Assembly: GCA_001314715.1 (NCBI GenBank)
Contig: LJSV01000001.1
Location: 124,001-188,000 of the forward strand
Source: Rhodobacteraceae bacterium HLUCCA12
GTDB taxonomy: Bacteria; Pseudomonadota; Alphaproteobacteria; Rhodobacterales; Rhodobacteraceae
Length of the DNA: 64,000 bases
Reading direction: 5' to 3'
Numbering within the stretch: the first letter of the stretch is position 1; the number at the start of each line of letters is the position of its first letter. A program made the position numbers and the translations under genes. Shown piece by piece: positions 7,041-20,017 of the stretch. The notes under the pieces are model-generated. The model saw only the letters and a program-made list of their open reading frames with translations. It was not told the DNA's origin and did no database searches.

Positions 7041-7730
7041 TCAGATCCGCGTGACCATCCGGTAGCCCGGCGCATAGGTCAGCGTGACCGCCGTGATCGG
7101 CTCGGCATCGGAAAAGGTCGTCCGGTCGATGGCGAAAAGGGCCGCCCCCCGGTCGCACATCAGCACTTCGGCCAGGGATGCGTCGGCCGGGGTTGCGTAA
7201 AAGGCGAAACCGCCGCCTGAAAACGCCAGATTGCGCACCAGCCACTCATTGGCACTGATCGTGTCAAAGCGCACCTCGGGCCCGGCGAAGGTGGGGTTGA
7301 TCCAGCGTTCTTCCAGGCAAAAGGGGGCGTCGTCGGCCAGATGCAGGGCGCGCACCATCCGCAGGGGCGTGGCACCGGGAAGACGCAGCGCATCGCGCAC
7401 CGCCAAAGGCGGCGGCGCCAGCCGGTCGGCCAGAAGCCTGTAGTCATAGTGTTGTCCGCGCCCCTCGACATCCTGGCGGATGATCGCGATCTCGAACGTC
7501 GCCTTGCGCACCGGGGTCAGCGGCACGCGCGTGCCGCCCTTGCGCCGGCGCTCCAGATAGCCCGAGGTCGCCAGATCGCGCAGCGCCCGGTTGACCGTGG
7601 CGCGGGCGCAGCCGAATTCGGCGGCCAGATCGGCCTCGTTCGGGATCTGCCCGCCCGGTGGCCATTCGCGTGTGTGGATGCGGCGCAGGGCCTCGGCGCG
7701 CACCGATTGCCAGGTGACGGGGCCATCCAT
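7041..7730 (-). CDS. hutC: Histidine utilisation repressor HutC (GntR family)
   Basis: HutC represses the hut genes and is released by urocanate. The 229-residue protein has an N-terminal GntR winged helix (about 5-70; PNEADLAAEFGCARATVNRA is the helix-turn-helix) and a C-terminal UTRA ligand-binding domain (about 85-225, ending YAPGYRMVTRI). Its ATG overlaps the hutF stop by one base, so the two are translated as a pair. The likely operator is in the hutF/hutI divergent region. Reading the frame further upstream would run into hutF and is not supported. Confidence 0.94.
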   Translation of the reverse strand: MDGPVTWQSVRAEALRRIHTREWPPGGQIPNEADLAAEFGCARATVNRALRDLATSGYLERRRKGGTRVPLTPVRKATFEIAIIRQDVEGRGQHYDYRLLADRLAPPPLAVRDALRLPGATPLRMVRALHLADDAPFCLEERWINPTFAGPEVRFDTISANEWLVRNLAFSGGGFAFYATPADASLAEVLMCDRGAALFAIDRTTFSDAEPITAVTLTYAPGYRMVTRI

Positions 7731-9094
7731 CACGACGTTGCCAGCCGCCCGACGACCGCGCGATAAGCGGCGGTGATCGCCGCGCGGTTGCGGTGCTGGC
7801 CACCGGCCACCACGTGCCGCCCCGCCGCCCAGACATCGCTGACCGCGCGGTCGTCGGCGGCAAAGACATAGGAATCCAGGATCGTATCGCCGTCGCGGCC
7901 ATGCAGGTCGATATGGCCGGTATCCAGCGCCATCAGATCCGCCAGCCTGCCCGGCGCGATCGCCCCGGCGTCGCGCCCGGCCGCCTGGGCACCGCCCTGG
8001 GCCGCCGTTTCGAACAGAACCCGGCCGGTGGATTTTTCCGGCGTGGCCAGCGCCGCGCGTGACTGGTCGCGCAGGCGTTGCGAATAGTCCAGCGTGCGTA
8101 ATTCCTCGGACAGGCTGATGCGGATATTGCTGTCCGATCCGACACCCCACTTGCCACCTGCATCGGCCCAGGCGACCCCGTCGAAAATGCCGTCGCCCAG
8201 GCTGGATTCGGTGATCGGGCACAAGCCCGCGACCGCACCGCTTGCCGCCAGTGCCAGCGTCTCGTGGCGCTCCATCTGCGTGCAATGGATCAGGCACCAG
8301 CGCGCATCGACCTGGGCATTGGCCAAAAGCCATTCCACCGGCCGCGCGCCCCAGGCGGCCTTGACCTCGTCGACCTCGGCGCGCTGTTCGGCCAGATGCA
8401 TGTGCAAGGGCGCTTGCGGGCGCAGCGCGGCGGCGGCGACCAGCCCCTCGGGCGAGACCGCGCGCAGGCTGTGCGGGGCAATGCCAAGGCGGGCATCGCC
8501 GGGCAGGGCGGCCAGCGCCGCCTCGGCCGCGTCCACCAGCCGGGCAAAGCGATCGGGGTCGTTGCCGAACCGGATCTGGCCCGGCCCCAGTGCACGCCCG
8601 TCGCAGCCGCCATGCTGATAGAGCACCGGCAGCAATGTCAGCCCGATGCCGGTTTCTCCGGCGGCCGCGACGACCCGCTGCGCCATTTCGGCGAGCGCGG
8701 CATAGGGCACGCCCCCCGGCGCATGGTGAAGGTAGTGAAACTCGGCCACCGCGGCATAGCCGGCTTCCAGCATCTGCATCTGCACGAAGGCCGTGATCGC
8801 CTGAACGTCGTCGGGCGTCAGCTGGTCCAGAAAGCGAAACATCAACTGCCGCCAGGTCCAGAAGGTATCGCGCGGATCAGGGCCGCGGCGTTCGCTCAGC
8901 CCGGCCATCGCCCGCTGGAAGGCATGTGAATGCAGATTGGTGGGCGCGGGCAGCAGCGCCCCGACCCGGATGTCGCCTGCGCGCGCGTCGCAGCCCGGTT
9001 CAAGCGTGGCGATGCGCCCGTCCGCGATCGTCAGGCGCAGCGAGGGGGTCCAGCCCCCCTCCAGCAGCGCGCGCTCGGCCCAGATCGTGGTCAT
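7730..9094 (-). CDS. hutF: Formimidoylglutamate deiminase
   Basis: HutF hydrolyses N-formimidoyl-glutamate to N-formyl-glutamate and ammonia, the fourth step of the five-step histidine pathway that ends with HutG. The 454-residue amidohydrolase has the metal site LHSHAFQR (His55, His57), the HMHLAEQ motif, an HCTQM segment and a GVGSDSN Asp region. It is transcribed divergently from hutI and is followed by hutC. Having both HutF and HutG means this organism uses the formylglutamate branch rather than HutE/formimidase. Confidence 0.95.
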
Positions 9095-9159
9095 GGCATT
9101 CCCCGTTGACTCGAAAAATAAGTATAGACATAATGCGGCAAGTCGATGGGGGAATCAAG
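9095..9159. promoter_or_regulatory. Divergent hut control region: promoter and probable HutC operator
   Basis: This 65-base region separates divergent hutF and hutI. For hutI I see a -35 TTGACT (9106-9111), a 17-base spacer and a -10 CATAAT (9129-9134). The AT-rich core AAGTATAGACAT (9120-9131) overlaps the -10 and resembles HutC operators of the TTGTATAGACAA type. A repressor bound there would block hutI and probably hutF. A possible hutI start at 9133 falls inside the -10 and is rejected. Confidence 0.6.
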
Positions 9160-10356
9160 ATGGAATCACCGCAACCCATGGTTCTGGCCAACGCGCGCCT
9201 TGCCACCATGGCGGCGCCGGTTTCCGGTCGCGGCGCGGTGGTGATCGCCGGCGATCGCATCCTATGGGCTGGGGCCGAGGCCGATCTGCCCGCCGAACAC
9301 GCCCGCGCCGAACGCCGCGACATGGAAGGGCGGCTGATCACCCCCGCGCCGATCGATTGTCACACCCATCTCGTGCACGGCGGCAACCGCGCGCGCGAGT
9401 TCGAGATGCGGCTCGAAGGTGCGTCCTACGAAGAGATCGCGCGCGCCGGTGGCGGCATCGTCTCGACCGTTGCGGCCACGCGCGCGGCCTCCGAGGATGA
9501 TCTGCTGGTCTCGGCCCTGCCACGGCTGGACGCGCTTTTGGCCGAAGGCGTGTCCACGGTCGAGATCAAGTCGGGCTACGGGCTGGATATCGACACCGAA
9601 CTGGCCATGCTGCGCACCGCCCGCAGGCTGGCCGATCTGCGCCCGGTGCGCGTGCGCACCACCTTTCTGGGCGCGCATGCCGTCCCCAAGGGGCACGAGG
9701 CCGATGCCTATATCGACCAGATCTGCCTGCCCGCGCTGCGTGCGGCCCATGCCGAGGGGCTGGTCGATGCCGTCGACGGCTTTTGCGAAGGCATCGCCTT
9801 TTCGGCCCCGCAGATCGCCCGCGTGTTCGATGCCGCGCGCGCGCTGGGCCTGCCGGTCAAGCTCCATGCCGAACAACTGTCGCATCAGGGCGGCACGGCG
9901 CTGGCCGCGCGTTACGGGGCGCTGTCGGTCGATCATGTCGAATACGCCGATGACGACGACGCGCGCGCACTGGCCGCCGCCGGCACGGTGGCGGTGCTTC
10001 TGCCCGGCGCGTTCTATTTCATCCGCGAGACCCAACTGCCCCCGGTGGCGGCATTTCGCGCTCATGGCGTCCCGATGGCGCTGGCCACCGATTGTAACCC
10101 CGGTTCGTCGCCGCTGACCTCGCTCCTGCTGACGATGAACATGGCCTGCACCTTCTTCCGCCTCACCCCGGCCGAGGCCTTGCGCGGGATCACCGCCAAT
10201 GCCGCGCGCGCGCTGGGGCTCGACGATTGCGGCACGATCGCGGCGGGCAAACGCGCCGATCTGGCGGTCTGGGATGTCGAAACCCCGGCCGAGCTGGCCT
10301 ATCGCATCGGGTTCAACCCGCTCCACGCCCGGATCTTCGGAGGTCGTCCATGCTGA
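9160..10356 (+). CDS. hutI: Imidazolonepropionase
   Basis: HutI opens the ring of imidazolone-5-propionate to give N-formimidoyl-glutamate, the third step of histidine breakdown. The 398-residue amidohydrolase shows the metal ligands in [12 protein letters not shown] (His68, His70), the GYGLD substrate segment, [12 protein letters not shown], and [10 protein letters not shown] with the metal-binding Asp. The ATG at 9160 follows a purine-rich GGGGGAA. The gene leads the plus-strand hut operon, and its stop overlaps the hutH start. Confidence 0.95.
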
Positions 10357-11867
10357 CCCTGACGCCGGGTGCGACCTCGCTCGAACAACTCGAACGGCTC
10401 TGGCGCTTTGGCGATCCCGCGCGGCTCGATCCGTCCGCGCGCGGCCCGGTCGAGGCCGCCGCCGAGGCCGTGCGCCGCGCGGCTGTCGGCAATGAGGCGG
10501 TCTACGGCGTGAACACCGGCTTTGGCAAGCTGGCCTCGGTCAAGATCGCGCCGGGCGATACCGCCACGCTTCAGCGCAACCTGATCCTCAGCCATTGCTG
10601 CGGCGTGGGCGAGCCGCTCGATGCGGCGACCACGCGGCTGATGATGGCGCTCAAGCTGCTCAGCCTCGGGCGCGGGGCATCCGGTGTGCGCTGGGACGTG
10701 ATCGCCCTGATCGAGTCGATGCTGGCGCGCGGCGTGACCCCGGTCGTTCCCGCGCAGGGCTCGGTGGGGGCGTCGGGCGATCTGGCACCGCTGGCGCATA
10801 TGACGGCGGCGATGATCGGCGCGGGCGAGGCGGTGTTCGACGGCCAGCGCATGCCTGGCGACCGGGCCCTGGCCGCGGCGGGGCTGTCGCCCGTCACCCT
10901 TGGCCCCAAGGAAGGGCTTGGCCTGATCAACGGCACGCAGTTTTCCACCGCGCTGGCCCTGGTCGGTCTGTTCGACGGCTGGCGCAACCTGCAGAACGCG
11001 CTCGTGACCTCGTGCCTGTCGACCGATGCGATCATGGGTTCGACCGCGCCGCTTGAGGCCGAGATCCACGCGCTGCGCGGGCATCGCGGCCAGATCGAGG
11101 TTGCGCAGACCATGCGCGATCTGATGGCCGGATCGGCGATCCGCGAAAGCCATCGCACCGATGACGCGCGGGTGCAGGACCCCTATTGCATCCGCTGCCA
11201 GCCGCAGGTGGCGGGCGCGGCGATGGACCTGCTGCGCTTTGCCGCCACCACGCTGGAGACCGAAGCCAACGCCGTCACCGACAACCCGCTGGTGGTCGGC
11301 GCCGGGATCATCTCGGGCGGGAATTTCCACGCCGAACCCGTCGCGTTCGCCGCCGATATCATCGCGCTGGCGCTGGCCGAGATTGGCGCGATCGCGCAGC
11401 GACGTGTCGCGCTGATGGTCGATCCCACGCTCAGCCACGATCTGCCGCCGTTCCTGACCCCCGATCCGGGCCTCAACTCGGGCTACATGATCGCCGAGGT
11501 CACGACCGCCGCGCTGATGAGCGAGAACAAGCACCTTGCCACGCCCTGCGCCACCGATTCCACGCCGACCTCGGCCAACCAGGAGGATCATGTGTCCATG
11601 GCCGCCCATGGTGCGCGGCGGCTGGGTCGGATGAATGCCAATCTTTCCGTGATCCTGGGGGTCGAGGCGCTGTGCGCCGCGCAGGGGATCGCGTTTCGTG
11701 CGCCGCTGCAAACCGCGCCACGCTTGCAGGCCGCGATCGCGGCGCTGCGCGAACGCGCCCCCGCGCTGGACACCGATCGCTATCTCGCCCCCGAGATCGA
11801 GGCCGCCGCCGGCCTGATCCGCGACGGCAGCCTCTTGCGCGCCGCCGGACTGGAGCTTCAGCCATGA
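10350..11867 (+). CDS. hutH: Histidine ammonia-lyase
   Basis: HutH removes ammonia from L-histidine to make trans-urocanate. The 505-residue protein has the Ala141-Ser142-Gly143 triad in [11 protein letters not shown] that cyclises to the MIO electrophile, Tyr52 in [10 protein letters not shown], and the family motifs GTQFSTAL and DNPLVVG. The ATG at 10350 overlaps the end of hutI by seven bases. Confidence 0.96.
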
Positions 11868-11869
11868 CC

Positions 11870-11935
11870 CCTTCATCTTGCCTCAAATACGCCGGGGGGG
11901 ACGCCGCGCAGCGGCGGCGGGGGCAGCGCCCCCTG
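11870..11935 (-). repeat. Dispersed double-hairpin element, copy C (inverted)
   Basis: Read on the minus strand, this gap between hutH and hutG has a GGGGG/CCCCC hairpin and a second hairpin GCCGC/GCGGC with loop TGC. A C-run and the tail GGCGTATTTGAGGCAAGATG plus AAGG follow. The architecture is the same as the copies at 2490 and 59542, but the stems have different bases that still pair. The element runs antisense to the hut operon. Confidence 0.75.
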
Positions 11936-11952
11936 ATCGACGGGGGCCACCC

Positions 11953-12747
11953 ATGACCCCGGTCGAGATTGCGCGCGGCGACGGCCCCGTCGTTCTGGGC
12001 CTGCCCCATACCGGCACCCATGTCCCGCCCGAGATCATGGCCCGGCTGAATGCGCAGGGCCAGGTTCTGGCCGATACCGATTGGCACGTGCACCGCCTCT
12101 ATGACGGTCTCCTGCCTGGCGCGACCACGGTGCGCGCGACCTTTCACCGTTATGTCATCGACGCCAACCGCCCGCCCGACGACCAGAGCCTCTATCCGGG
12201 GCAGAACACGACCGGACTGGTGCCCGCGACCGATTTCGACGGCGAACCCATCTGGACGCAGGCACCCGATGCCGCCGAGATCGAGGCCCGGCGGCGCGCC
12301 TATCACGCGCCCTACCATGCGGCGCTTCTTGCCGAACTCAAGCGCGTGCATGCCCGACACGGGGTGGCGCTGCTCTATGATTGCCATTCGATCCGATCGC
12401 ATATTCCCTACCTGTTCGACGGGACGCTGCCCGATCTCAACATCGGCACGGTCGGCGGGTTGAGCTGTGACCCACGAATTCAGGACGCGGCGATGGAAAT
12501 GGCCGGAAAGGCAAAGCGTTACACCAGTATCCTGAACGGTCGATTCAAGGGTGGCTGGACCACGCGCCATTACGGGCGCCCCCGCGCCGGCTATCATGCG
12601 ATCCAGATGGAACTGGCGCAATCCACCCATCTTGAAACCGAAAGCCCGCCCTTTGCCTATAGCGCGGACAAGGCCGCACGCCTGCGTCCGGTTCTGGCCG
12701 GCCTCTTGCAGCGCCTGGCCGAAACGGTGCTGGAGCTTCGTCCATGA
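11953..12747 (+). CDS. hutG: N-formylglutamate deformylase
   Basis: HutG hydrolyses N-formyl-L-glutamate to glutamate and formate, the last step of the pathway begun by HutH. The 264-residue protein belongs to the metal-dependent FGase family, with VLGLPHTGTHVP near the N terminus, YDCHSIRSHIP in the middle and a MELAQSTHLE segment near the end. The ATG at 11953 was chosen because the upstream in-frame extension covers the dispersed repeat. Its stop overlaps the next start (ATGA). Confidence 0.94.
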   Translation: MTPVEIARGDGPVVLGLPHTGTHVPPEIMARLNAQGQVLADTDWHVHRLYDGLLPGATTVRATFHRYVIDANRPPDDQSLYPGQNTTGLVPATDFDGEPIWTQAPDAAEIEARRRAYHAPYHAALLAELKRVHARHGVALLYDCHSIRSHIPYLFDGTLPDLNIGTVGGLSCDPRIQDAAMEMAGKAKRYTSILNGRFKGGWTTRHYGRPRAGYHAIQMELAQSTHLETESPPFAYSADKAARLRPVLAGLLQRLAETVLELRP

Positions 12748-13940
12748 AGCCATTGGATGGAATAAGAATTCTTGATCTGACACGAGTTCTGGCCGGGCCA
12801 TTCTGCACCGCGCTCATGGCCGATCTGGGGGCCGAGGTGATCAAGCTGGAGCCGCCGCAGGGCGACGACTATCGCCATATCGGCCCGTTCGTGCAGGGCG
12901 AAAGCGCGCTGTTCGCCCTGACCAACCGGGGCAAGCAATCGCTGGCGGTTGACCTGAAAACCCAAGAAGGCCAAGCGCTTGCAAGGCGTCTTGCGCAAGA
13001 CTGCGATGTCGTGGTCGAGAATTTTCGCCCCGGCGTCGCCGACAAGCTGGGCCTGGGCGCCGCGCGTCTGCGCGCCGACAATCCGGGGCTGGTCTATTGC
13101 TCGATCTCGGGTTTCGGCCAGTCCGGCCCGTTCGCCGCACTTCCGGCCTATGACATCATCGTGCAGGCGATGTCGGGCCTGATGGACGCAACCGGCGACG
13201 AGGGCGGCGCCCCGCTGAAGGTGGGTGAGGCGGTGGGCGATCTGATCGCCGGGCTCTATGCCGCCTGGGCGATCTGCGCGGCGCTGGTCGGGCGTGCGCG
13301 GCAGGGTCAGGGCAGCACCCTTGATGTCGCCATGTTCGACGCGCTCTTTGCGCTCTTGCCCACCAGCCATGCGCTGCATCTTTATGCCGACCAGCCCATC
13401 GCCCGCACCGGAAACCGGCATCCGTTGTCCACACCCTTCGGCGCCTATCGCACCCGCGACGGGCATGTCATCATTGCCGCTCTGGGCGCGCGCCAGTTCG
13501 CGGCCCTTTGCGCCGTCGTGGGTCAGCCCGAGGCCGCGCAGGATGCGCGCTTTGTCAACGACGAGGCCCGCACCCGCCATGAACCGGCGGTTCGTGCGCT
13601 GATCGAGGACTATACCGCCAGTCGTCCCACCGACGCCGTGATCGCGGCGCTGCGCGCGGCCCATATTCCGGCAGCGCCGATCCTGACCTTCGCCCAGGCC
13701 GCCGCCACCGACCATGCCCGCCAGCGCGATCTCGTCGCGGCACTACCGCATGACGGGTTGGGGCAGGCGCCGGTGGTCGGGCAGCCGGTACGGTTCGATG
13801 GCATGAAACCGCTTGCCGAAACCGGCGCACCCGCACTGGGGTCGGGCACCCGCAACACCCTGACCGCGCTTGGTCTGACCGAGGCCCAGATCGCCGGTCT
13901 GATCGATGCCGGCATCATCAAGGAGGCCGCGCATGGCTGA
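12744..13940 (+). CDS. Class III (CaiB/BaiF) CoA-transferase within the hut operon
   Basis: Family III CoA-transferases move CoA between carboxylic acids through an aspartyl-CoA intermediate. The 398-residue protein has the N-terminal family signature (LDLTRVLAGPFC; LGAEVIKLEPP), ENFRPG, and the catalytic Asp166 in KVGEAVGDLIAG. It is translationally coupled to hutG (ATGA) and overlaps the downstream acyl-CoA dehydrogenase by 8 bases, so it is an integral operon member. Family knowledge gives the reaction type; the substrate is inferred. A plausible role is activating imidazolepropionate with CoA from urocanoyl-CoA. Glutarate or another dicarboxylate is an alternative. Confidence 0.88.
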   Translation: MKPLDGIRILDLTRVLAGPFCTALMADLGAEVIKLEPPQGDDYRHIGPFVQGESALFALTNRGKQSLAVDLKTQEGQALARRLAQDCDVVVENFRPGVADKLGLGAARLRADNPGLVYCSISGFGQSGPFAALPAYDIIVQAMSGLMDATGDEGGAPLKVGEAVGDLIAGLYAAWAICAALVGRARQGQGSTLDVAMFDALFALLPTSHALHLYADQPIARTGNRHPLSTPFGAYRTRDGHVIIAALGARQFAALCAVVGQPEAAQDARFVNDEARTRHEPAVRALIEDYTASRPTDAVIAALRAAHIPAAPILTFAQAAATDHARQRDLVAALPHDGLGQAPVVGQPVRFDGMKPLAETGAPALGSGTRNTLTALGLTEAQIAGLIDAGIIKEAAHG

Positions 13941-15024
13941 TCTCTATCACATGCTCGATGAGGCCGAGGCCAGCTTCATCACCATGCTGGAACGCTTCGC
14001 GGCCGAGAAACTGGCGCCGAAAGCCGCTGCGACCGATGAGAGCGGCGCGTTCGTCCATGCGCAGCTCGACGGCCTGGCCGAGACCGGCATGATGGGCGCC
14101 AACCTGCCGGAAAAATGGGGCGGCGCCGACATCTCGGCGCAGGCGCTGACGGCGCATTACCTGGCAAGCGATTCCATCCTGATCGGCGGCGACGACGATC
14201 TGCGCGCCCGCTACCTGCCCGATGCGGCGACCGGTGCGAAACTGGGCGCCTTTGGTCTGACCGAACCCACCGCCGGATCGGACCCCGCCGACATCAAGAC
14301 CCGCGCCACGCGCGAGGGCGACGGCTGGCGGGTCAAGGGGCGCAAGTGCTTCATCTCGAACGGCGGTGTGGCCGATTTCGTGGTCATCTACGCCGTCACC
14401 GATCCTGCCGCGCGGCATCGCGGCATCTCGGCCTTCGTCGTTGACAAGGGCACATCGGGCTTCACGCCGGGGCGGGCCGAGAACACGATGGGCCTGCGTG
14501 GCGGCCATGTCTGGGAGCTGGATCTGGACCTCTGGCTGCCCGAAAGCCAGCGGCTGGGCGCCGAGGGCACGGGCTTTCGCACCGCCATGACGGTGCTGGA
14601 CAACGGGCGGCTGGAAGTGGCCGCCATGTGCATCGGCATCGCGCGCGCCGCGCTGACGGCCGCCACCGACTGGGCGAAAACCCGGATCATCAGCGGTGAG
14701 CCCCTCGCCGCGAAACAGGGCATCCGCTGGATGCTGGCCGACATGGCGCTGGATCTGCGCGCATCCGAGTTGCTGGCGCTTGAGGCCGCGCGCCTGCGTC
14801 AGGATGGCGCGCGCTTTTCCGAGGCGGCCAGCATGGCCAAGCTGCATGCCAGCGAAATGGCCCACCGTGTTACCGACAAGGCGATCCAGATCCACGGCGG
14901 TTACGGTTTCACCCGCGATTTCCCGCTCGAACGCCATGCCCGCGACGTGCGCATGATGCGCATCTACGAAGGCTCGTCCGAAATTCAACGCAACATCATC
15001 GCCGGCCACCTTCTGGCCGCCTGA
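13933..15024 (+). CDS. Acyl-CoA dehydrogenase within the hut operon
   Basis: This flavoenzyme family makes an alpha,beta double bond in acyl-CoAs. The 363-residue protein has [12 protein letters not shown] (FAD/substrate region), [13 protein letters not shown], and the terminal YEGSSEIQR with the catalytic Glu346. It starts after a strong AAGGAGG site and overlaps the CoA-transferase by 8 bases. Two oddities: about 15-20 residues of the usual helix between the N-terminal and middle domains are missing (around residues 75-85), and the usual RxQFG loop reads RIISGEP. The genes around it suggest an imidazolyl-propionyl-CoA substrate; this is inference. Confidence 0.88.
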
Positions 15025-15034
15025 GGAGGCATGC

Positions 15035-16720
<1,686 letters not shown>

Positions 16721-16723
16721 CGT

Positions 16724-16762
16724 GCATTTTCTGTCTGAAAATATCCCCGCCGGAGGCTTCCG
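16724..16762 (-). repeat. Degenerate tail of the dispersed element between hutU and the TRAP genes
   Basis: On the minus strand the gap contains a CGGA/TCCG mini-hairpin followed by GGCGGGGATATTTTCAGACA and GAAAATG. This resembles the conserved tail of the other copies, but the two large hairpins are missing. The 102-base gap otherwise holds only the AGGGAG ribosome-binding site for dctP. Confidence 0.45.
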
Positions 16763-16822
16763 CAACCGCAACCTCACCCCACCGGCGGGACAACGACCCA
16801 CCACCAACCAAGGGAGACTCCC

Positions 16823-17911
16823 ATGAAAAGACGTGCCTTTCTGACTACCGCCACCGTCGGTGCGGCCGCGGCCTCGCTGGCCACGCCGGCGCTGTCGCAA
16901 AACACCCGCCAGTGGCGGCTGGTTTCGGCCTGGCCGCGCAACCTGCCCGGACCGGGTGTCGCCGCGCAGATGCTGGCCGATCGCATCACGACCCTGTCGG
17001 GTGGCCGGCTTGAAGTCGAATTGTTCGCCGCGGGCGAGATCGTCCCCGGACCCGGCGTCTTTGATGCCGTGGGCGAGGGCACGGCCGAGATCTATCACGC
17101 CGTTCCCGCCTATTGGGGCTCGAAGTCCAAGGGCATCCTGTTGTTCGGGTCGCAGCCGCTGGGCCTGACGGCCAATGAACAGCACGGCTGGATGCTGCAC
17201 GGCGGCGGCCAGGACCTCTATGACGAGATGTATGCCCGCTTCAATCTCAAGCCCTTCCTGTGCGGCAATTCCGGTCCGCAATGGGGTGGCTGGTTCCGCA
17301 ACGAGATCAATTCGCTCGATGACATCCGCGGGTTGAAATACCGCACCACCGGCCTGAACTCGGAAGTGATGTCGAAGCTTGGCGTCGCGGTCGAGGCGAT
17401 GTCCGGCCCGGCCATGTTCCAGGCACTGCAATCGGGTGCGCTGGATGCGGGCGAGTTCATCGGTCCGTGGTCGGATTCGGCGCTGGGTCTGCAACAGGTT
17501 GCGGACTACTATTACGACAACGGCGTGGGCGAGCCCTCGTCGGCCGAGGAATGCGCGGTCAATCTCGACGCCTGGAACGAGCTTGAGGACGATCTCAAGG
17601 GCGCGGTGCAGATGGCTGCGGAAAGCCTCTATAACGTCGTGCATACCGAGTACAACACCAAGCACGCGATGGCGCTGCGCGAGCTGATCGAGGGCGGCAC
17701 CAAGGTGCGCCAGTGGCCCGAAGAGATCATCATCGCGCAGGGCAACGCCATGGGCGAGATCCTTGAGGAAATGCGCGAGGACGATGACGAACTGGTCGCG
17801 CGCATCACCGAAAGCTTCATCGCCTATCGCGACCTGATGGCCGACTATCAGCCGCATGCCGAGGCCGCGCAACTGGCCGCGCGCAGCCTTGACTTCACCT
17901 ACGCGCGCTGA
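16823..17911 (+). CDS. dctP: TRAP transporter substrate-binding protein (DctP/TakP type)
   Basis: This periplasmic protein captures organic acids for the DctQM membrane subunits. The 362-residue product begins with KRRAFL, a twin-arginine-like signal, and a hydrophobic stretch ending near ATPALSQ, so export by Tat is likely. The mature part resembles the 2-oxo-acid binding TakP group (WRLVSAWPRNLPG near the N terminus; PGPGVFDAVGEG; YYYDNGVGEPSS). It begins about 100 bases after hutU on the same strand, which suggests a ligand from the hut pathway such as urocanate or imidazolyl acids. This is not provable from sequence. Confidence 0.88.
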   Translation: MKRRAFLTTATVGAAAASLATPALSQNTRQWRLVSAWPRNLPGPGVAAQMLADRITTLSGGRLEVELFAAGEIVPGPGVFDAVGEGTAEIYHAVPAYWGSKSKGILLFGSQPLGLTANEQHGWMLHGGGQDLYDEMYARFNLKPFLCGNSGPQWGGWFRNEINSLDDIRGLKYRTTGLNSEVMSKLGVAVEAMSGPAMFQALQSGALDAGEFIGPWSDSALGLQQVADYYYDNGVGEPSSAEECAVNLDAWNELEDDLKGAVQMAAESLYNVVHTEYNTKHAMALRELIEGGTKVRQWPEEIIIAQGNAMGEILEEMREDDDELVARITESFIAYRDLMADYQPHAEAAQLAARSLDFTYAR

Positions 17912-17926
17912 TTGATCGCGTTTCGG

Positions 17927-17949
17927 CCGGGCGGCATCTTGCCGCCCGG
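17927..17949 (+). terminator. Strong hairpin between dctP and dctQ
   Basis: A perfect 10-bp stem CCGGGCGGCA/TGCCGCCCGG with a three-base loop lies 16 bases after the dctP stop. It has no U-run. Such hairpins commonly sit after binding-protein genes and let the binding protein be made in excess over the membrane subunits, by 3'-end protection or partial termination. Confidence 0.75.
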
Positions 17950-17973
17950 TCCTGCCTGCAAGGAGGACACCGG

Positions 17974-18483
17974 ATGACCCGCCTCGCCGATGCTTGCGAC
18001 ACGATCAACCGTGCGGTGGGCGCGGTCGTGATGTGGCTTGCGCTGATCATGGTGCTGCTCCAATTCGGGGTTGTCCTGCTGCGCTATGTCTTCGGGTTCT
18101 CGTCGATCTTTCTCAACGAATCCGTGCTTTACCTGCATGCCACGATCTTCATGCTGGGCGCGGGTTACACGCTCTGGGCGCAGGGGCATGTCCGGGTCGA
18201 TATCTTCTATGCCCGGTTCCCGGCCCATCGCAAGGCGCTGGTCGATCTTCTCGGCCATCTGTTCCTGCTGGTGCCGTCGGTTCTGATGCTGCTCTACTGG
18301 TCCTGGCCGATGGTCCACCGCTCGTGGGCGATCCTCGAAGGGCCGATCTCGGTCGGGGGTATCCCGGCCTCGTTTCTGTTGAAGTCGCTGGTTCCGGCCT
18401 TCTGCCTTCTGCTTCTGGTGCAGGGGGTTTCGGCCCTGATCCGCGATGTCATTCGCCTGCAGGAGACCCGCGATGGCGCTTGA
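17974..18483 (+). CDS. dctQ: TRAP transporter small membrane subunit DctQ
   Basis: DctQ is the four-helix small subunit of tripartite TRAP transporters and joins DctM in the inner membrane. The 169-residue protein shows four hydrophobic segments (about 13-35, 50-70, 88-112, 134-156) and the family patterns NRAVGAVVMW and LNESVLYLHA. An AGGAGG site precedes the ATG. Its 3' end overlaps dctM by 11 bases. Confidence 0.9.
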   Translation: MTRLADACDTINRAVGAVVMWLALIMVLLQFGVVLLRYVFGFSSIFLNESVLYLHATIFMLGAGYTLWAQGHVRVDIFYARFPAHRKALVDLLGHLFLLVPSVLMLLYWSWPMVHRSWAILEGPISVGGIPASFLLKSLVPAFCLLLLVQGVSALIRDVIRLQETRDGA

Positions 18484-20017
18484 TCTGTGGATGTTCGCAG
18501 CCCTGATCGTCTTTATCCTGATCGGGTATCCGGTGGCGTTCACGATCGCCGGCGTGGCGACGATTTTCGCGCTACTGGGCTGGGCGCTGGATGTGTTCTC
18601 GATCAACCTCATGGGCGCGCTGGGGCAGCGGTTTTTCGCGGTGATGACCAACCCGGTGCTGACCGCGATCCCGCTGTTCGTGCTGATGGGTGTCGTGCTG
18701 GAAAAGTCGCGCATCGCCGAGGAATTGCTTGAGACCATGGGGCGGCTCTTCGGCGCGATGCGCGGCGGGCTGGGGGTTTCGGTGATGGTCGTGGGCGCGC
18801 TTCTGGCGGCCTCGACCGGGATCGTCGGGGCGACCGTGGTGGCGATGGGCATGATCGCGCTGCCGGCGATGCTGCGCAATGGCTACAACCCCCGGCTGGC
18901 GGCCGGCACGGTCTGCACGGCCGGCACGCTGGGGCAGATCATTCCGCCCTCGACCCTGCTGATCATCCTGGCCGAGGTCATGTCCTCGGCCTTTCAGCAG
19001 GCGCAATACGAACAGGGCCGGTTCAGCATCGAAACCATTTCCGTGGGCCAGACATTCGCCGCGGCGCTGGTGCCCGGCCTGGTGCTGGTTGTCATCTATA
19101 TCCTGTATATCCTGGGCCGGGCCTGGCTGATCCCTGGCGATGCCCCGGCGCTGCGCGAACGCACGACGACTGTATCGCGCGCCGAGATCACGGGCGCCAT
19201 CGTTCCGCCGGTCCTTCTGATCGTCGCGGTTCTGGGGGCGATCCTGGGCGGTGTCGCCTCTCCGAATGAGGCCGCCAGCGTCGGCGCGGTCGGCGCGATC
19301 CTGCTGGCCGGGTATCGGCGGGGCGCCCCGCGCGGATTGATCCTGGCAGGCGCAGCGGCGCTGTTGATTCTGGCGGTCGTGGCGGGTCTGGCGCCGGTGC
19401 GGCTGCAACGTTCGGACACCGGTTTGCTGCAATACCTGATGGCGGCCGTCTATTCGGGGCTGGCGCTGGTCGGACTGGCCGCGATTGCCAGCGCCCTGCG
19501 CGCGCTGGGGCGTCAGCGGCTGGTGACACCCGCGCTTGCCCAGACCCTGATCGTTACGTCGATGATCTTTGCGACGATCCTCATGGCCTCGTTCTTCAGC
19601 CTGGTCTTTGTCGGTCTGGGCGGCGAACACCGGGTTGCGGCGATTCTGGAATCGCTTCCGGGCGGGGCGACGGGGGCGCTGATCTTCGCGATGGTCTTTG
19701 TCTTCATCCTGGGCTTCTTTCTCGATTTCGTCGAGATCTCGGTCATCCTGCTGCCGCTTCTGATCCCGCCCCTGATCCTGATGGGGCATGATCCGATCTG
19801 GCTGGCGGTTCTGATCGCGGTGAACCTGCAAACCAGTTTCCTGACGCCGCCGTTCGGGTTCTCGCTGTTCTACCTGCGCGGCGCGGCCCCGCCCGAGGTC
19901 ACGACCGGCATGATCTATCAAGGCGTTGCGCCCTATATCGTGCTTCAGGTTGTGGCGATCGCGATCATCTGGCTTGTGCCCAGCATCGCCACCTGGCTGC
20001 CGGGCCTGGCGTTCTGA
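18473..20017 (+). CDS. dctM: TRAP transporter large membrane subunit DctM
   Basis: DctM is the ion-coupled translocation subunit (sodium-driven in characterised members). The 514-residue protein is almost entirely hydrophobic and carries the family motifs GYPVAFTIAG, ASTGIVGATVVAMG, GTLGQIIPPST and TPPFGFSLFYLRG. A central region (about 270-365) adds extra hydrophobic helices compared with the ~425-residue standard form, as in the long TakM-like subgroup. The ATG at 18473 lies inside the end of dctQ. It converges with rsmA. Confidence 0.93.
   Translation: MALDLWMFAALIVFILIGYPVAFTIAGVATIFALLGWALDVFSINLMGALGQRFFAVMTNPVLTAIPLFVLMGVVLEKSRIAEELLETMGRLFGAMRGGLGVSVMVVGALLAASTGIVGATVVAMGMIALPAMLRNGYNPRLAAGTVCTAGTLGQIIPPSTLLIILAEVMSSAFQQAQYEQGRFSIETISVGQTFAAALVPGLVLVVIYILYILGRAWLIPGDAPALRERTTTVSRAEITGAIVPPVLLIVAVLGAILGGVASPNEAASVGAVGAILLAGYRRGAPRGLILAGAAALLILAVVAGLAPVRLQRSDTGLLQYLMAAVYSGLALVGLAAIASALRALGRQRLVTPALAQTLIVTSMIFATILMASFFSLVFVGLGGEHRVAAILESLPGGATGALIFAMVFVFILGFFLDFVEISVILLPLLIPPLILMGHDPIWLAVLIAVNLQTSFLTPPFGFSLFYLRGAAPPEVTTGMIYQGVAPYIVLQVVAIAIIWLVPSIATWLPGLAF

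Follow-up and report, generated by a model that had tools for sequence, protein, structure and literature searches.

A pair of adjacent genes inside the histidine utilization (hut) operon of Rhodobacteraceae bacterium HLUCCA12, judged from its sequence and context, probably forms an accessory feeder of histidine catabolism that would carry imidazolepropionate through its coenzyme A (CoA) ester and urocanoyl-CoA to urocanate. The genes encode a class III CoA-transferase (12744..13940, + strand), the proposed imidazolepropionate CoA-transferase, and an acyl-CoA dehydrogenase (ACAD; 13933..15024, + strand), the proposed imidazolepropionyl-CoA dehydrogenase, which is probably impaired here. Both lie in the window, a 64,000-nucleotide stretch of contig LJSV01000001.1 that is part of a 3.73 Mb genome. 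In the proposed route the transferase would activate imidazolepropionate (dihydrourocanate) to its CoA thioester, the dehydrogenase would oxidise imidazolepropionyl-CoA to urocanoyl-CoA with electrons passing to electron transfer flavoprotein (ETF), and the transferase would then move CoA from urocanoyl-CoA to the next imidazolepropionate, freeing urocanate for HutU. The proposal builds on gene content, recurrent linkage to hut genes, HutC operators and repressors at separate copies of the pair, conserved catalytic-type residues, and clean absence of the pair from hut operons that are otherwise alike.

Results

An earlier note on this DNA had placed the pair between hutG and hutU, with overlaps of 4 and 8 bases, and the coordinates and strands all bear this out. 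The end of hutG at 12747 overlaps the transferase start at 12744 by 4 bases, and the end of the transferase at 13940 overlaps the dehydrogenase start at 13933 by 8; the latter start is backed by relatives, and an alternative in-frame ATG lies upstream at 13906.

We scanned a species-genome collection with the transferase alone and examined the best 80 loci listed, some of which have short flanks (loci and genomes carry our labels in L and G). Fifty-four of the 80, which vary in gene order and come from Alpha- and Betaproteobacteria, have hut enzyme genes (hutH, hutU, hutI, hutG or hutF) in the flank, and three more (L072, L073 and L097) have only a HutU relative that is 50% identical. Of the 54 linked loci, 42 place the transferase fewer than 300 bases away from hut genes, and the other 12 up to ca. 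5.5 kb away. A related dehydrogenase directly follows the transferase in 73 of the 80 loci; two that are 27% identical were left uncounted. Hosts among the matches listed include Paracoccus, Gemmobacter, Roseovarius, Rhodobacter, Tabrizicola, Mesorhizobium, Alsobacter, Mycoplana, Variovorax, Polaromonas, Delftia, and Comamonas. The pair is therefore present in hut operons other than the window's, which clearly contradicts the absence from all of them that the earlier note had named as a refutation.

The linked forms differ in layout. The pair occurs between hutG or hutH and hutU, after hutU (L096, L198), after hutG (L070), or beside the hut cluster upstream of genes for a tripartite ATP-independent periplasmic (TRAP) transporter (L196), and in the Comamonadaceae order it is divergent from a LysR gene, an ATP-binding cassette (ABC) transporter and hutH. 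At L077 the transferase is 5' of hutU and the dehydrogenase ca. 8 kb away, and in G309 a transferase just 49% identical directly follows hutU, on a long tree branch whose position is unsure. On a transferase tree of 91 rows, 83 of them labelled (the other eight being three of thiourocanate type and five with short flanks), the state hut-linked versus not changes at least nine times among the labelled rows; thus, hut linkage has been gained or lost repeatedly.

Searches with the dehydrogenase agree on the recurrence of the pair. Within the window's family it was found at E <= 1e-100 in nine of 248 genomes, own included; of the other eight, five, all from different genera, have the pair in a hut operon, and three lack hut genes within ca. 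20 kb. A separate 398-genome sample of the phylum gave nine matches, seven of them (own and G309 included) beside hut genes, the exceptions being G255 and G564. We also chose 38 hut regions from 99 genomes with hutU, leaving out genomes known to have the pair inside a hut operon and keeping G086, where the pair is elsewhere; because these regions were picked for having no embedded pair, its absence there is not a frequency. In 36 of the 38, by our reading, hutG or hutH adjoins hutU in the same gene order (e.g. L172, L184, L189). The pair is an accessory module of hut operons, cleanly absent from otherwise similar ones.

Regulatory sites point to the same association. We built a 16-base HutC matrix from the hutF-hutI intergenic regions of pair-less hut operons (32 regions, 31 sites used). 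The window has a single strong predicted operator, of 29.1 bits, between hutF and hutI (9117..9132, + strand); the next-best site in the 64 kb scores 10.0. At two Mesorhizobium loci where the pair stands apart from hut genes, two sites each separate the transferase from a divergent HutC repressor (26.4 and 21.8 bits at L034; 26.4 and 19.8 bits at L036). L078 has the same layout with a site of 26.9 bits, and at L081 an ABC transporter diverges from the transferase, with sites of 29.8 and 25.5 bits in between and a HutC gene behind the transporter. In Jannaschia rubra (L037) the pair forms its own unit ca. 5 kb from the hut genes, with a site of 19.5 bits. The HutC repressors near the pairs of L034, L036, L078, L081 and L037 score 235, 237, 287, 287 and 269 bits, all above the cut-off of 220. 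Of the 66 sites of at least 17 bits that we found across 86 loci (1,506,810 bases), 63 are no more than 400 bases upstream of hutI, hutF, hutC, hutH, dctP or the transferase. Seven loci shuffled by mononucleotide contained no such site in 673,690 bases. Predicted HutC control of the pair applies to the window and to most of the hut-linked forms in Alphaproteobacteria. Chance insertion of the pair into a hut operon is rejected in view of the linkage together with these operators.

Both family assignments of the earlier note were confirmed. CoA_transf_3 (PF02515) covers residues 4-367 of the 398 in the window transferase with 423 bits, and the catalytic-type Asp166, the presumed equivalent of Frc Asp169, is invariant in all nine aligned sequences. 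The dehydrogenase has N-terminal (PF02771), middle (PF02770) and C-terminal (PF00441) ACAD domains, and its Glu346, within the YEG motif YEGSSEIQR, is invariant in 26 of 26 aligned sequences; its role is presumably that of the catalytic glutamate of medium-chain acyl-CoA dehydrogenase. A structural model of the intact relative L024 gave query TM-scores of 0.91-0.97 against solved ACAD structures among the 50 matches listed. The transferase falls below the cut-off of all seven NCBIfam models that it matched, including the succinate-glutarate, mesaconate, oxalate/formyl and carnitine types, and because both enzymes are below every matched cut-off, no named function applies to either.

The gene content is consistent with the proposed conversion. 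The module has no hydratase, thiolase or CoA ligase of its own, as would be expected if, overall, it turns a saturated acid into a free 2-enoic acid such as urocanate, and among acids that meet the hut pathway, imidazolepropionate/urocanate is the couple that fits. We infer the substrate from this context, the oxidative direction from the aerobic life of the hosts and the adjoining uptake genes, the CoA cycle by analogy with class III transferases such as CaiB, and the use of ETF from what is general in the family. The imidazolepropionate-to-urocanate route put forward in the earlier note gains from repeated hut linkage in different gene orders, from the HutC operators and repressors that accompany five separate copies, and from the presence of the pair in Comamonas testosteroni, while the part of it that concerns the window's own dehydrogenase suffers from a deletion that probably impairs that enzyme.

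The same enzymes could conceivably work in reverse, reducing urocanoyl-CoA to imidazolepropionyl-CoA as a drain for surplus urocanate or electrons; CaiB/CaiA and caffeyl-CoA reduction would be the analogues. The nearest NCBIfam model of the dehydrogenase is indeed acryloyl-CoA reductase (330 bits for the window, 357 for L024 and 377 for L063; cut-off 640), and HutC control would equally suit an enzyme that consumes urocanate. However, most named hosts among the matches listed are regarded as aerobes or facultative denitrifiers, and the HutC-controlled separate copies adjoin uptake systems (L034, L036, L037, L078 and L081), which suggests import of an acid rather than its disposal; we regard the reverse direction as unlikely. 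Similarly improbable is that the substrate is some other acid from imidazole metabolism feeding into the hut pathway, such as a ring-modified imidazole propionate or hydantoin propionate. Our substrate assignment is a proposal rather than a proof, and a related transferase with two other dehydrogenases occurs in thiourocanate clusters (L072, L073 and L097), which makes ring variants plausible, but wherever hutU is in the flank of a pair among the matches listed it is 64 to 94% identical to the window HutU, those three loci (50%) excepted. A urocanate-yielding feeder also fits the regulation best, given that urocanate is stated to relieve HutC in P. putida (PMC12772324). That the pair's substrate is glutarate or some other short dicarboxylic or fatty acid, with the hut link reflecting shared nitrogen or carbon control only, is very improbable: the nearest transferase model is succinate-glutarate CoA-transferase (312 bits, cut-off 750), but its cut-off is not reached in the window, L024 or L063, the glutaryl-CoA dehydrogenase model NF045552 gives them only 197, 206 and 230 bits against a cut-off of 470, and the HutC operators and repressors that accompany separate pairs suggest imidazole acids. 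Glutarate itself, which the earlier note had offered as an alternative, is disfavoured and is rejected on family scores.

The thiourocanate clusters of Pandoraea and Afipia (L072 2049-12533, L073, L097 3786-12501) encode a class III CoA-transferase related to the window's and two adjacent dehydrogenase-like genes ca. 27% identical. Of these, L072 and L097 were scanned and contain thiourocanate hydratase (1032 and 969 bits, cut-off 930); L072 also has a thiohydantoin desulfurase. These clusters are perhaps a parallel module for thio-imidazolepropionate derived from ergothioneine. A literature search on thiourocanate gene clusters gave no papers.

Among 198 genomes of the window's family searched, 99 have hutU, and these include all seven pair-bearing genomes known to be in that set (p = 0.007; p = 0.014 without the own genome), and hutU is also present in G200 and G225, the other two of the nine family genomes with the dehydrogenase. 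Where the pair is not hut-linked (G086, G114, G200, G255, G564 and G638), hutU is found elsewhere in all six genomes, fragmentary in G114 and cut at 377 residues in G638. The HutU model was matched in 12 of the 14 genomes of the named-host loci (L088 lies outside this set).

In Comamonas, 22 of 41 genomes match HutU, 20 of them above 900 bits. Thirteen of these 20 hut clusters carry the transferase with the LysR gene and ABC transporter next to hutC and hutH, counting L226, where only the transferase is visible, at the edge of the sequence stretch; seven lack the transferase. In C. testosteroni JL40 (L063) this cluster, too, is found at the end of a contig, and canonical hutU is not in the assembly. 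At five other loci of the genus (L215-L218, L220) the transferase and dehydrogenase are 97-99% identical to those of L063, and canonical hutU is present. Degradation of imidazolylpropionate by Pseudomonas testosteroni, presumably the old name of C. testosteroni, was reportedly the subject of a paper by Coote and Hassall in 1973, going by its title, and the conversion is said to go by way of urocanate. That system would share its substrate with the proposed route, in a species whose genome carries the pair (L063), although genes would hardly have been assigned at that date. Elsewhere in JL40 (L200 7719-10468), a thiourocanate hydratase adjoins a thiohydantoin desulfurase (610 bits, cut-off 440).

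Several observations weigh against the proposed route. In 23 of the 80 loci the examined flank (short in some) is without a hut enzyme gene, 15 of these 23 have instead a LysR-like divergent open reading frame (ORF), read by eye, and 19 of the 23 lack a HutC site of 17 bits (those with one are L034, L036, L078 and L081 only); the wider family may therefore have another or a broader substrate. LysR genes beside pairs were judged by eye from ORF starts, except at L063, where Pfam was used. HutC matrix matches in Comamonas (L063, L215) are weak, at most 11.5 bits, and since the matrix was trained on sites of the window's family, it provides no operator evidence for Betaproteobacteria. Of the 12 HutU matches among the named hosts, that of C. 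testosteroni JL40 is the thiourocanate hydratase only (1046 bits, cut-off 930) and that of Polaromonas P2-4 (L068) is a hutU in broken frames, and the two remaining genomes of the 14, hosts of L078 and L084, have no HutU match; L078 has a HutC repressor and operator despite this. Gene content is no proof of a free acid product, because the CoA ester could be used by enzymes whose genes are elsewhere. Within the window's genus, the dehydrogenase was found at E <= 1e-110 in only three of 18 genomes, own included, and the window dehydrogenase itself is missing 18 residues.

Pairs without nearby hut genes, mostly with a LysR-like divergent ORF, are seen at L080, L082-L083, L085-L094, L015, L016, L193, L194 and L197. 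Their substrate may be the same or a different one.

The 18 residues missing from the window dehydrogenase are present in all 25 relatives of the 26-sequence alignment. At the DNA level, comparison with L024, L023, L025 and L021 shows an in-frame deletion of 54 bases at a 7-base direct repeat, the two copies of which flank the extra segment in L024; the sole remaining copy marks the junction in the window (14142..14148, + strand, measured against L024). The N-terminal helical ACAD domain of the window protein is thereby incomplete. In AlphaFold2 models, the helix at 63-76 (L024 numbering) is lost, the next helix is shortened from 20 to 12 residues, and the mean predicted local distance difference test score (pLDDT) is 87.9 for the shortened protein versus 92.5 for the intact relative. 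Thus, the dehydrogenase step is probably impaired in the window's own strain, and function is read from intact relatives; G644 (L192), of the same genus, has a full-length, hut-embedded pair.

We lean towards a recent loss of the module in this strain, with the dehydrogenase inactivated by the deletion, a reading that is compatible with the feeder role proposed for the relatives and is judged separately from it. The 18 residues are absent only in the window sequence, the model loses one helix and part of the next, and the genome has no close second copy, the next-best dehydrogenase being 43% identical. Conversely, the deletion preserves the reading frame, the remainder of the gene is under strong constraint (nonsynonymous divergence, dN, 0.044; synonymous divergence, dS, 0.565 versus L024), with a dN that only hutU undercuts among the six genes compared, and the predicted fold of the shortened protein is still fairly confident. 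Such constraint outside the gap implies that the deletion is recent, an artefact, or tolerated; real loss, a change in culture and an assembly error are indistinguishable here as its cause.

The hut region spans 7041 to 20017 and reads hutC and hutF on the - strand and, divergently on the + strand, hutI, hutH, hutG, the CoA-transferase, the acyl-CoA dehydrogenase, hutU and a TRAP transporter. Curated NCBIfam cut-offs were used to call hutC, the histidine utilization repressor (7041..7730, -; TIGR02018, 229 bits, cut-off 220), hutF, formimidoylglutamate deiminase (7730..9094, -; TIGR02022, 551 bits, cut-off 413), hutG, N-formylglutamate deformylase (11953..12747, +; TIGR02017, 361 bits, cut-off 279), and hutU, urocanate hydratase (15035..16720, +; TIGR01228, 950 bits, cut-off 375). 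Two further genes were called by Pfam only, supported by their ORFs and by related genes in hut loci: hutI, imidazolonepropionase (9160..10356, +; Amidohydro_1, start chosen from the sequence), and hutH, histidine ammonia-lyase (10350..11867, +; Lyase_aromatic, 595 bits). The TRAP transporter genes dctPQM lie 3' of hutU (16823..20017, +; PF03480, PF04290, PF06808).

Uptake systems of unrelated kinds lie next to the pairs. ABC systems whose binding protein is of family 3 are found at L034, L036 and L081, a permease and ATPase of that kind at L037, and an NMT1-type ABC transporter at L063. Cytosine/purine-type permeases, identified by Pfam, lie near the pair at L078 (8386-9807), L198 (7599-9032) and L063 (104-1573) and are candidate carriers of imidazolepropionate or urocanate. 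A survey of the HutC regulon leaves open the cargo of the COG1457 purine-type permeases in HutC regulons (PMC5343134), for which imidazolepropionate or urocanate is likewise a candidate. TRAP genes accompany the pair in the window and at L196. As a dedicated imidazolepropionate carrier the TRAP transporter was rejected as non-specific, related dctPQM genes standing beside hutU in four of the 38 pair-less hut regions; at L196, dctP (9008) has its own predicted HutC operator (25.7 bits), so that the transporter is probably a general histidine or urocanate-type carrier.

Discussion

The gene pair belongs to the same two enzyme families as CaiB/CaiA of carnitine metabolism, where CoA passes back and forth between an acid and the corresponding enoic acid with no ligase involved. 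It differs in scoring below the model cut-offs (CaiB 133 of 413 bits; CaiA 139 of 540), in its hut context, and in the proposed oxidation. The caffeate and phenyllactate cycles (CarA/CarC, FldA) likewise work on CoA esters of 3-aryl propionates and 3-aryl acrylates with transferase cycling, and so resemble the proposed route in chemistry, but they are anaerobic and reductive; by sequence, the CarC structure 6fah is further removed from the window protein (229 bits versus 272 for the top match). UrdA acts on the free acid, whereas the proposed pair would convert the same metabolite couple in the opposite direction and via CoA esters. Gut bacteria use UrdA to make imidazolepropionate from urocanate (PMC13320830).

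With the hut pathway itself, the pair shares an operon, a repressor family and its operator, and the proposed product, urocanate, is the substrate of HutU. Passages of the HutC regulon survey name the hut enzymes, HutD, a histidine biosynthesis operon (in two species) and transporters, and its main text mentions neither 'CoA-transferase' nor 'acyl-CoA dehydrogenase' (PMC5343134). The earlier note knew of no gene assignment for this pathway, and a literature search of open-licence papers likewise turned up none for imidazolepropionate breakdown among the matches listed.

More broadly, and with rather less confidence than in the feeder role, it is possible that an aerobic imidazolepropionate module became hut-linked several times in Alpha- and Betaproteobacteria, partly under HutC, that ergothioneine breakdown has, for its thiourocanate branch, a parallel module with the same transferase family and two different dehydrogenases, and that re-oxidation of dihydro-urocanates as CoA esters is a general, as yet unnamed salvage strategy.

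Imidazolepropionate is a gut-microbial metabolite linked to diabetes; Koh et al., in a 2018 title, reportedly described it as a compound that gut microbes form from histidine and that impairs insulin signalling. Schlesinger and Magasanik, in a 1965 title, are said to have presented it as a nonmetabolizable hut inducer in Aerobacter. While the window copy looks recently damaged, intact copies of the module are present in other bacteria. The module offers two candidate genes, a regulator and candidate transporters for imidazolepropionate breakdown. If the proposal is correct, it would explain how a compound that is nonmetabolizable in Aerobacter is degraded elsewhere, and the module would be a possible source of enzymes for removing imidazolepropionate.

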